From the NCBI GenBank assembly GCA_017474515.1, contig JAFVHN010000008.1, forward strand, positions 1-33,748: DNA of 33,748 bases, read 5' to 3'. The notes under the pieces are model-generated. The model ran no database searches. It saw only the letters and a program-made list of their open reading frames with translations, and had not been told where the DNA came from. The translations under genes and the position numbers were made by a program. Shown here piece by piece: positions 1-33,748 of the stretch (position 1 is its first letter; each line of letters starts with the position of its first letter). This stretch comes from Prevotella sp. (GTDB taxonomy: Bacteria > Bacteroidota > Bacteroidia > Bacteroidales > Bacteroidaceae).

Positions 1-14
1 GCGAAGCGCAATCA

Positions 15-222
15 TTTTTGTCAAGATTTTTCATGGTTTTTTAGTTCCCTCAATAAGTTTGACCGCAAATTTCGGGGAGAGATTTGGCAGTTTGAGGGAA
101 GAGATTTTGAAGTTTGAGACCCGAAATTTGCGGTCAAACTTTGGCCGTTTTAAAACCTGTTGATTATCAATATGTTATAAAATAGCCGGAATTTTAAGAA
201 TTTTGTCAAATATTTTTACCAA
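15..222 (+). repeat. Dispersed palindromic element, copy 1
   Basis: The core at 57-139 is 83 nt. It begins GTTTGACCGCAAATTTCGGG and ends with the exact reverse complement, giving 20-bp perfect arms. A box TTTTGTCAAGATTTTTCATG starts at 16, 41 nt before the core, and a related box TTTTGTCAAATATTTTTACC starts at 201, 62 nt after the core end. Both box-to-core distances recur exactly in the copies near 17806 and 30470. The interior holds two 22-nt near-repeats (79-100 and 101-122) of the type AGAGATTTtGaAGTTTGAG. The rest of 1-481 holds no gene that I can support. Confidence 0.85.
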
Positions 223-393
223 TTTTACCCCATGTCGATATCCATCCCGAAATGAGGAAAACGGGGAAAATCTCTCAAAATCCGAAGGGCCGCAGAGCCT
301 TTCGAAAGGATGAAAACGACGGGGATTGGAGGCTAAAATGGCATGAAAACGCATAATTTTATACAATCATGCTAACAAATCATATATTTTTAC

Positions 394-6964: not shown

Positions 6965-7144
6965 TTGAAAAATCTTTACAAAACAACGAATTTCTATATC
7001 ACTGATTATCAACGGTTTAAAAACGCACCGAGAAAAACGCCAAATTTCGAGGACTTTGACCGCAAATCTCTCCTCGAAAAGTGCCATTTTTCTCCATGAA
7101 AATTGACGTCAAACCATCCGGATGATAAAACATATTTACAAAAC
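6965..7144 (-). repeat. Dispersed palindromic element, decayed copy 4
   Basis: A box TTGAAAAATCTTTACAAAAC (6965-6984) differs at four positions from the box flanking copy 3. CTTTGACCGCAAAT (7054-7067) and the inverted partner CGTCAAAC (7107-7114) are the remains of the core, shortened to 61 nt. GATTATCAA (7003-7011), also found in the flank of copies 1 and 3, lies between box and core. A very weak second box ends near 7144. The orientation is that of copy 3. Another box-like string in the opposite direction lies near 6925-6945. This element fills the gap between dbpA and tilS; no gene is visible there. Confidence 0.6.
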
Positions 7145-17805: not shown

Positions 17806-18013
17806 TTTTTGTCAAGATTTTTCATGGTTTTTTTGTCACCTCAAGAGGTTTGACCGCAAATTTCGGGGAGAGATCTTCAAGATTTCTCCTCTCAATCTTC
17901 AAGATCTCTCCCCGAAATTTGCGGTCAAACCAAGGGCGATTTACAAACCACTGAAATTCAACGAATTACAAAGGCCATGCAAAAACACTTATTTTGTCAA
18001 AAATTTTTACCAA
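17806..18013 (+). repeat. Dispersed palindromic element, copy 2 (best palindrome)
   Basis: The core at 17848-17930 is 83 nt. Arms extend to 38 bp (17847-17884 with 17894-17931) with a single mismatch and a 9-nt loop, much longer than in copies 1 and 3. The box TTTTGTCAAGATTTTTCATG starts at 17807, 41 nt before the core. TTTTGTCAAAAATTTTTACC starts at 17992, 62 nt after the core end. The geometry is the same as copy 1. The rest of 17702-18097 shows no gene. Confidence 0.88.
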
Positions 18014-18097
18014 TTTTTATCCTATCCGCTATCCGTCGCAGGATAAAGAAAAAAACAAATCGGTCATAACATGTACCATAATCCACGGCCTGGATTT

Positions 18098-23002: not shown

Positions 23003-23056
23003 ATATATACAAAAACAAGGAGCACGTTTTCTCGTGCTCCTTGTTTTTGTATATAT
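23003..23056. terminator. Terminator hairpin after glgP
   Basis: A 24-bp perfect stem (23003-23026 with 23033-23056) closes a 6-nt loop. It contains A5 and T5 runs inside the arms, so it can act on both the glycogen operon and the convergent tlpA transcript. Confidence 0.85.
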
Positions 23057-29218: not shown

Positions 29219-29640
29219 AAGGAGTTCGTAATTCCCCTCTACTTCCCTACTCCATGGTATTATTATTTCCAAGGAGTAAGGGAGTCAAGGAATATGTGCC
29301 TCTCCTCTACTCCACTACTCCATAGAAATCAAAAGTCTAAGGAGTAAGGGAGTCAAGCAATATGAGTTTCACCTCTACTCCACTACTCCGTGGAAATCAA
29401 AAGTCTAAGGAGTAAGGGAGCCAAGCAATATGCGCTTCTCCTCCACTCCACTACTCCGTGGAAACTAAAAGTCTAAGGAGTAAGGGAGCCAAGGAGTATG
29501 TGCTTTTCCTCTACCCCCCTACTCCTTTGAGAAAAAAGATTAAGGAACCCACGGATTAATCAGTCCTCCTTTACTCCCCAACTCCTTAGAAATAAAAAAA
29601 GAATTGAGGAACCCGTGGATTATAATCTAATCCAAAACTC
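29219..29640. repeat. 68-bp tandem repeat array between PrsW and trmO
   Basis: AAGGAGTAAGGGAG starts at 29271, 29339, 29407 and 29475, an exact 68-bp period. Diverged units begin at 29219 (shortened), 29542 and 29606. Each unit carries GGAGTAAGGGAG near its start and CTCTACTCCACTACTCC near its end, which pair imperfectly, so each unit can fold as a hairpin. Units 2 to 4 differ at only a few positions. It fills the interval between two convergent genes; no gene is seen in it. Confidence 0.9.
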
Positions 29641-30413: not shown

Positions 30414-30469
30414 GAAATCTGACGATGAAAATCAGCTTTTGAAAGGAGTATTCCGGTGGATAGTTTTTA

Positions 30470-30674
30470 ATGAAAAATCTTGACAAAATCAGCAAAATTG
30501 AGACAATTTTATAACTTATTGATAATCAAGCACTTTAAACAACGGGAAAGTTTGACCGCAAATTTCGGGGAGAAATCTTGAAGATTGAGAGGAGAGATCT
30601 TGAAGTTTGAGGAGGGAAATTTGCGGTCAAACTTCTTGGCAGATGAAAATTTCCATGAAAAATCTTGACAAAAT
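30470..30674 (-). repeat. Dispersed palindromic element, copy 3 (inverted)
   Basis: The 83-nt core at 30550-30632 begins GTTTGACCGCAAATTTCGGG and ends AAATTTGCGGTCAAAC (16-bp perfect outer arms). Two identical 20-nt boxes ATGAAAAATCTTGACAAAAT at 30470-30489 and 30655-30674 bracket it in direct orientation. Read on the minus strand, the spacings (41 nt box to core, 62 nt core to box) equal those of copies 1 and 2, and the flank shares GATTATCAATAaGTTATAAAAT with copy 1. It fills the space between the trmO and lysozyme promoters. Confidence 0.88.
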
Positions 30675-33160: not shown

Positions 33161-33208
33161 TAGGAGCCGACACTTGTAGGAGCCGACGTCTGTAGGAGCC
33201 GACGCTTC
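33161..33208. repeat. Three 16-bp tandem units TAGGAGCCGACnnnTG
   Basis: TAGGAGCCGAC starts at 33161, 33177 and 33193, an exact 16-bp period. The third unit runs on into a hairpin, CCGACGCTTccAAGCGTCGG. This is the head of the 77-bp array. Confidence 0.85.
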
Positions 33209-33463
33209 CAAGCGTCGGAACTGCCTCAATTCAATTATTCGATATATTTTTAATTACTCCGACGCTCGGAGGCGTCGGCTCCTACAAAAGCGACAGGACC
33301 GCATCAATTCAATTATCCAGTATAATTTAATTACTCCGACGCTCGGAGGCGTCGGCTCCTACAAAAGAGACAGGACCGCCTCAATTCAATTATTCAGTAT
33401 AGTTTAATTACTCCGACGCTCGGAGGCGTCGGCTCCTAAAAAAGCGACAGGACCGCCTCAAAT
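33192..33463. repeat. 77-bp tandem array of REP-like hairpins
   Basis: CCGACGCTCGGAGGCGTCGG starts at 33259, 33336 and 33413, an exact 77-bp period. The spacer has the common string TCAATTCAATTATnCnnTAT followed by TTTAATTACT. Each hairpin is CCGACGC-TCGGAG-GCGTCGG. A fourth, leading hairpin at 33192-33219 (GTAGGAGCCGACGCTTCC and on) is in the opposite orientation, while the spacer after it keeps the common orientation. The last unit is cut off after GACCGCCTCAA at 33462. The interval 33108-33160 shows nothing else. Confidence 0.88.
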
Positions 33464-33748
33464 ACCGGCGATGACAAGATTGTGGCCATCAGGAACACCT
33501 CTGACAAAGCAGAGAACCTGACATTCTCGCTGAACGGATGGATTCTGAAAAAAGTCGCCGTGTCGGTGGACAGGAAGAAAATCGGTAAGACCGGCTACAC
33601 CACAGAGAGCCGCGACAGGGTCATCGACCACCGCCTGACAAGCTTCTTCACCGCCAAGCCCGTCAAGGCTTACATCGGAACGGTCAACGACGACCACACG
33701 CTCATGTCGCTCACGGAGATTGACATCATGGCCGAGGACGTCAACGAC
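33440..33748 (+). pseudogene. Headless reading frame at the window edge, beta-rich protein fragment
   Basis: An open frame runs from just after TAA (33437-33439) in the last repeat unit to the window end. From 33464 it reads TGDDKIVAIRNTSDKAENL, then FSLNGW, GYTTESRDRVIDH and PVKAYIGTVNDDH, with the codon use of a real gene. The first in-frame ATG is at 33703, deep inside the frame; a GTG at 33482 is the only earlier alternative. There is no -7 box or leader: the sequence passes directly from a truncated repeat unit into coding sequence. Either the 5' end was removed by recombination at the repeat, or the assembly joined two places here. The beta-strand pattern suggests a domain of a secreted or cell-surface protein; I do not recognise the family. 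Confidence 0.6.

Follow-up and report, generated by a model that had tools for sequence, protein, structure and literature searches.

A dispersed intergenic element, organized around a palindromic core with two direct boxes at set distances from it, forms a real and species-restricted family in the genome of Prevotella sp. (assembly GCA_017474515.1). Four copies lie in the 33,748-nt stretch of DNA analysed here (contig JAFVHN010000008.1, positions 1 to 33,748; hereafter, the window), and many more are found in the rest of the draft genome (3.51 Mb in 118 contigs, 88 per cent complete). The family is very probably mobile in origin. On balance, we lean toward reading it as a species-restricted, non-autonomous mobile element of REPIN- or MITE-like kind, with copies that have lasted as DNA sites, intact and spaced apart.

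Within the window, copy B (17807–18037, plus strand; 213.9 bits in nhmmer, ends placed by motif) is a unit of 231 nt. It runs from the 5′ box TTTTGTCAAGATTTTT (17807–17822) through an 83-nt palindromic core (17848–17930) and the 3′ box TTTTGTCAAAAATTTT, which points in the same direction (17992–18007), to the terminal motif YTATCCRYC (18029–18037), 37 nt from the start of the 3′ box. Copy A (16–246, plus strand; 195.1 bits) has its core at 57–139 and its boxes at 16–31 and 201–216. Copy C (30455–30673, minus strand; 166.2 bits), a short-tail form as read by eye, has its core at 30550–30632 and its boxes at 30658–30673 and 30473–30488. Re-measurement of arms, boxes, and core lengths agreed with the earlier note on this DNA: in all three copies the first box starts 41 nt 5′ of the core, the second starts 62 nt past the last base of the core (61 nt between), and the arms match without mismatch (57–72/124–139, 17848–17863/17915–17930, and 30550–30565/30617–30632). 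A decayed fourth copy (6965–7132, minus strand; 48.6 bits, E-value = 1.2e-13) also has an 83-nt core by eye, with an inner arm-type unit. With up to two mismatches, the arm 16-mer has seven matches in the window where 0.04 would be expected, which excludes chance. Other repeats in the window include a tandem array at 29271–29525 (68-nt unit, 3.8 copies, 88 per cent matches) and, near the contig end at 33161–33479, a 77-nt tandem repeat (3.1 copies) with an adjoining 16-nt repeat and GC-rich inverted repeats. A perfect inverted repeat with 24-bp arms around a 6-nt loop (23003–23056), directly 3′ of a long open frame, is probably a terminator.

Across the family, the parts follow one order: 5′ box, a fixed 41 nt, the core, 61–62 nt, the second direct box, a tail, and YTATCCRYC. 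The earlier note had described an element of about 205 bp; a discrete unit does exist, but it continues past the second box and measures ~218–232 nt from TTTTGTCAAGATTTTTCA through to YTATCCRYC. With one mismatch allowed, the terminal motif is recognisable in 56 of 68 copies and missing from 12, and it lies 36 or 37 nt from the start of the 3′ box in 48 copies and 24 or 25 nt from it in eight. The unit ends, by reading, are 5′ TTTTGTC... and 3′ ...TATCCRYC, and we saw no terminal inverted repeats there; as the earlier note had it, the boxes are direct. No sequence common to most copies precedes the first box. In 18 of 72 copies a TTTAGCGNAGCGC-like stretch does (10–22 nt before it in 15 and 39–41 nt before it in three), and both of its occurrences in a 428-kb sample (up to one mismatch) adjoin a copy.

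The core is itself composite, being made of units of 22, 22, 22, and 17 nt, and Tandem Repeats Finder independently called the 22-nt period in copies A (74–118) and C (30569–30620). The 22-nt units are exchangeable within the core: an arm-type unit replaces the third unit at two loci (L060 and L070) and in the decayed copy at 6965, and the core length is still 83 nt. Both middle units contain odd dyads, ATCTTSAAGAT or ATTTGSCAAAT. Among 69 distinct gap-free cores the dyad halves vary in concert (core pair 30–32 is T-A in 51/69 and G-C in 15/69), and dyad positions also covary between the two middle units.

Genome-wide, we found 188 cores when each arm was allowed up to three mismatches and the length was set at 83 nt, and 54 cores with exact arms in a search permitting 62–92 nt. 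Fifty of these 54 were examined, and the core measured 83 nt in every one; the first box stood exactly at −41 in 47/50 (L029 and L056 have no box, and that of L032 is at −31), and the second followed after 61 or 62 nt in 49/50. In a wider set, 72 of 76 cores were 83 nt long, and the other four were not measurable. The 49-nt core interior has no gap in 3,528 alignment cells across the 72 copies scoring above 100 bits, though 23 per cent of its sites differ from the consensus. Counts at conserved sites are restricted to copies above that score (72/76, or 48/53 in the layout sample described below). One alignment left out L029, L047, and L056 and so comprised 47 of the 50 copies with exact arms; a second comprised 44 of the 72. 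The claim that spacing is conserved despite differing interiors thus holds well beyond the three copies that prompted it, as does the expectation that intergenic copies would be numerous and keep the 41/62 spacing; the whole-genome search turned up neither an absence of further copies nor random box distances, the two outcomes named beforehand as telling against it.

Searches of other genomes of the genus had a divided outcome: the 22-nt unit recurs in one of them (G079), but the exact box pair was found in 0/397. The core with up to three mismatches was found in 0/59 other genomes, and a covariance model run under strict filters on 120 genomes picked up G079 with four weak matches and left 118 others without any. 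A 17-mer of the unit, GTTTGACSGCAWWWTTC, occurs at 236 places in its own genome and at 55 in G079. Among 398 genomes, it has one further match in each of G073, G222, and G315; by eye these lie in unique or coding sequence, and we took them as chance rather than as family members. In G079 the 22-nt units stand in tandem or inverted within an element that, by reading, is longer and of another kind. Four loci there (L202, L204, L209, and L214) carry what looks like this longer, modular intergenic element, with several kinds of 22-nt unit, among them the GTTTGACGGCATAATTC unit that it shares with the present family. The exact core had no match in the GTDB set of 84,980 species or in viral contigs, and copy B had none among plasmids and phages, in searches that may leave out the window's own record. 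The arm 16-mer was not found in a text search of the literature. The portions of the literature retrieved on palindromes of Prevotella and the rumen, Bacteroidales MITEs, Bacteroidetes REPINs, and evenly spaced repeats gave no account of the element, nor did those on MITEs with target immunity describe it; Prevotella is not mentioned in the text of PMC12306157.

The mobile origin that the earlier note had put forward as one option gains support from an empty site and from the limits of similarity between copies. At one locus, between a GH95 and a GH43 gene, the intergenic gap of 253 nt consists of 4 nt, the 218-nt element, and 31 nt. In the four relatives with both genes adjacent among the matches listed (G224, G349, G197, and G354), the gap measures 15, 19, 19, and 96 nt, respectively, and the unit is absent from all four, so that the element is an insertion there; the exact junction is not definable, as the relatives are too divergent. 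Similarity of close pairs stops at the unit ends (e.g. L007 and L053, 88.6 per cent over −1 to 236). A scan of 54 copies for target-site duplications, made with ends that are not base-exact, found none: whatever the offset or length, the signal did not clearly exceed that of control pairs. Synteny is broken in relatives at the site of copy B, 5′ of a glycogen synthase gene, where several of them carry what we take to be 5S rRNA. Young copy pairs may break the assembly: two contigs, C102 (window positions 1–15) and C78 (L047), end in near-identical copies (96 per cent over 246 nt). A third, C84, seems to end within a copy.

No mobilising enzyme for the element was found in the 88-per-cent-complete genome, and one may be missing because the genome is incomplete. 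The DDE_Tnp_1 profile had no match in it, and neither its one IS110-type match (contig C76) nor its two reverse transcriptases showed a link to the element. A reverse transcriptase on contig C5 (L200:1117–2442, minus strand), which matches the defence-candidate class RT_UG26 with 532 bits, lies 864 bp from a copy; as a partner of the element we set it aside, a single adjacency among so many copies not being counted as evidence.

Selection may have acted on copies after insertion. Across 72 copies, the boxes match the consensus at 97 and 88 per cent of sites and the arms, partly selected by the search, at 97 per cent, against 53–62 per cent for the stretches between. In an unselected 767-kb sample (48 copies above 100 bits), the first box and arms are off consensus at 4.4–5.7 per cent of sites and free sites at 34.2 per cent. 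In 48 nearest-neighbour pairs, from which pairs <2 per cent apart were omitted as likely the same copy, divergence has a median of 30.5 per cent at free sites and a mean of 6.2 per cent at boxes and arms. Neutral copies should show motif decay matching that of free sites. The same pattern could arise without constraint on single copies, were old ones to vanish quickly and all survivors to be young. Against this stands the finding that only four of 71 copies (two pairs), a part of all copies, have a relative >90 per cent identical outside the core. Identities outside the motifs are near star-like (mean 0.543, standard deviation 0.069 vs 0.044 when columns are shuffled; 71 copies), and most of the copies compared therefore have long separate histories. 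Profile detection favours copies with intact motifs; only 5/53 copies in the 767 kb score below 100 bits, along with two more weak hits, one at a contig end.

Two further ideas about these motifs were rejected. Boxes do not seem to act as solitary binding sites, to judge by a 428-kb sample, with 38 boxes inside elements and two outside (one at a contig end). Nor is core inversion an active switch: interiors divide into 41 purine and 30 pyrimidine forms, and their orientation is partly inherited, since it is common to 41/62 nearest-neighbour pairs where 51 per cent is expected.

The copies also keep their distance from one another, a rule based on 767 kb of draft genome (8 contigs, 53 copies, our own codon-based gene calls). 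The 45 gaps between neighbours average 14.5 kb, with a coefficient of variation (CV) of 0.555 and a minimum of 4.87 kb. None is shorter than 4.5 kb, where random intergenic placement would give 14.9 (CV 1.03); 0/2,000 such simulations were equally even. With simulations that respected intergenic class and length and used each gap at most once, the CV was 0.84 with 9.9 gaps <4.5 kb, and 1/3,000 was as even and 0/3,000 lacked a short gap. Hard-core exclusion of 4.8–6 kb reproduces the observed evenness (simulated CV 0.624–0.564). Five of five decayed copies have their nearest neighbour 6.9–33 kb away, and neighbouring copies have no preferred relative orientation (21 same, 24 opposite). Either target immunity or selection favouring distance between sites would account for a minimum spacing, and the candidate role as a protein-bound nucleoid site, one of the options in the earlier note, is strengthened by it.

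With respect to genes, 0/53 copies lie wholly within called ones. Of the 48 that could be placed, 23 are in divergent, 21 in tandem, and four in convergent gaps, against expectations of 13.2, 29.7, and 5.1 (divergent, P-value = 0.003). When only gaps of 100 free bp or more are counted, 24/51 divergent, 19/185 tandem, and 3/31 convergent ones are occupied; four more copies sit in smaller gaps. The data do not show that copies shun convergent gaps, because an earlier mixed set of 60 copies held 13 convergent cases beside 26 divergent and 21 tandem ones. Orientation relative to genes shows no clear bias in the 21 tandem cases (12 same, 9 opposite). The motif TAnnTTTG, which we take to be the promoter-like Bacteroidetes −7 box, occurs between element and facing gene in 63/68 cases vs 71/113 control gaps (Fisher P-value = 4e-6), in a comparison made rough by control stretches trimmed at 300 bp. 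The gene-nearest occurrence comes no closer than 54 nt to the element.

A structured RNA of riboswitch or small-RNA type, an option in the earlier note, now seems extremely unlikely. The predicted fold of copy B is very stable (−83.2 kcal/mol, z = −11.8), but the consensus fold with covariation analysis suggested as a check gained nearly nothing (−0.25 kcal/mol), inner pairs of the long hairpin (1029/1656) fell below shuffles (1112.5), and Rfam at gathering score found only tRNA in the window. The unbiased gene orientation, the placement among genes, and the position upstream of promoter-like motifs speak against it as well. The core dyads would fit DNA sites at which proteins bind with dyad symmetry better than they would the stem of an RNA. 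Also very unlikely, if a little less so, is a REPIN mobilised by the RAYT of its own genome. It has in its favour the layout of inverted, near-invariant 16-mers that enclose a spacer of variable sequence and fixed length, like that of the SBW25 GI REPIN, in which two invariant inverted 16-mers lie 71 bp apart and the spacer is less conserved but its length appears to matter (as described in excerpts of PMC3116915). The genome has one Y1/RAYT-like gene (C24:23184; L093, region C24:23184–23495), but it is flanked by a different, GTAG-tagged REP (GTAGGGACATAC...), and its 3.3-kb locus holds no copy of the element. REPs of RAYT systems have a GTAG (or CGTC) tag at the palindrome foot and copies flanking the RAYT gene (parts of PMC3733652 and PMC6006769), whereas 50/50 element cores begin GTTTGACC, and GTAG or GTGG lies within 8 nt outside the core foot in 1/50 cores and CGTC in 3/50. 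The 3.3-kb loci of both Y1 genes of G079 lack the 22-nt unit. The element prefers divergent gaps, but REPs lie mainly in convergent and unidirectional ones (the same parts of PMC3733652). Some link is possible, given that the GTAG REP sits ~30 nt 5′ of the first box at L001, L002, L005, and L063, as if both repeats had co-travelled, and that the genome is 88 per cent complete.

A plain MITE-like, non-autonomous transposon with no host role is a more serious contender, though still on the unlikely side. Its geometry would reflect what the transposase needs and its spacing target immunity, a property of Mu, Tn3, and Tn7. The empty sites and sharp unit ends, the fit to hard-core exclusion, and the absence of copies wholly within genes, as purged insertions would give, all suit it. 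It sits less well with motif sites that, in nearest pairs, diverge about a fifth as much as free sites, with the scarcity of weak copies, and with the lack of visible terminal inverted repeats and target duplication. We keep to the mobile element that persists as intact sites. In this reading, a discrete intergenic unit of fixed geometry, missing from the same place in relatives at the one locus compared, would have been moved during the history of the lineage by a trans-acting enzyme that recognised the palindromic core and direct boxes, much as REPINs are recognised by RAYTs. Host or element proteins would then have kept binding the boxes and 22-nt dyads as a nucleoprotein complex. Such continued binding may be why motifs and spacing are kept at single copies, and the same complex, through target immunity or spacing selection, may be why no two copies were seen within ~5 kb. 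A bolder and rather doubtful extension, drawn from sequence patterns, is that the formerly mobile element now provides genome-wide, evenly spaced nucleoprotein sites upstream of promoters, ~14.5 kb apart and never <~5 kb, that might insulate transcription units or fix topological domains; the dyads and direct boxes would be where proteins bind, and a version of its own might exist in at least one further species of the genus.

Known systems resemble the element in part. Dispersed protein-bound chromosome sites of the matS type are likewise many, short, constrained, and intergenic, but the element is a large, inserted site seen in a single species. Palindrome-ended elements derived from IS200/IS605 have non-inverted ends and an internal hairpin, as does the element, in which neither IS605 ends nor guide sequences were recognised by eye; we know of no fixed direct boxes in that group. 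Of the usual traits of MITEs, the element is short, non-coding, multi-copy, and missing from empty sites (one locus), and it shows neither terminal inverted repeats nor target duplications. The nearest Bacteroidales analogue that we found is the BrickBuilt MITE of Porphyromonas gingivalis, which, in the sections of PMC4596501 available, is also intergenic, of narrow host range, and built on a short unit (23 nt; 22 nt in the element). BrickBuilt differs in having IS5-type terminal inverted repeats, a variable tandem number of its 23-nt unit, and 19 copies (same sections), whereas in the element the number of units is fixed, copies are about ten times as many, no terminal inverted repeats were seen, and there are no IS5-type ends or variable 23-nt array. 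With the REPIN of Pseudomonas fluorescens SBW25, as far as it is described in excerpts of PMC3116915, the element shares inverted, near-invariant 16-mers, a variable spacer of fixed length, hairpin formation, intergenic position, and high copy number. Inverted ends and a fixed spacer are thus present, but the tag, the flanking of a RAYT, and the gap class are not those of REPs, some families of which are likewise species-specific (parts of PMC3733652): the core has no GTAG tag, the local RAYT has another REP, and the element extends well past the hairpin, to direct boxes and a tail motif that stand at set distances. It also occupies divergent gaps and is spaced apart rather than random. Found in one species of a large genus, it thereby offers a testable case of either a small mobile repeat with target immunity or one recruited for chromosome organisation. 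Unlike REP doublets, for which a random distribution across extragenic space is described (excerpts of PMC3116915), its copies keep both their internal geometry and a minimum mutual distance.
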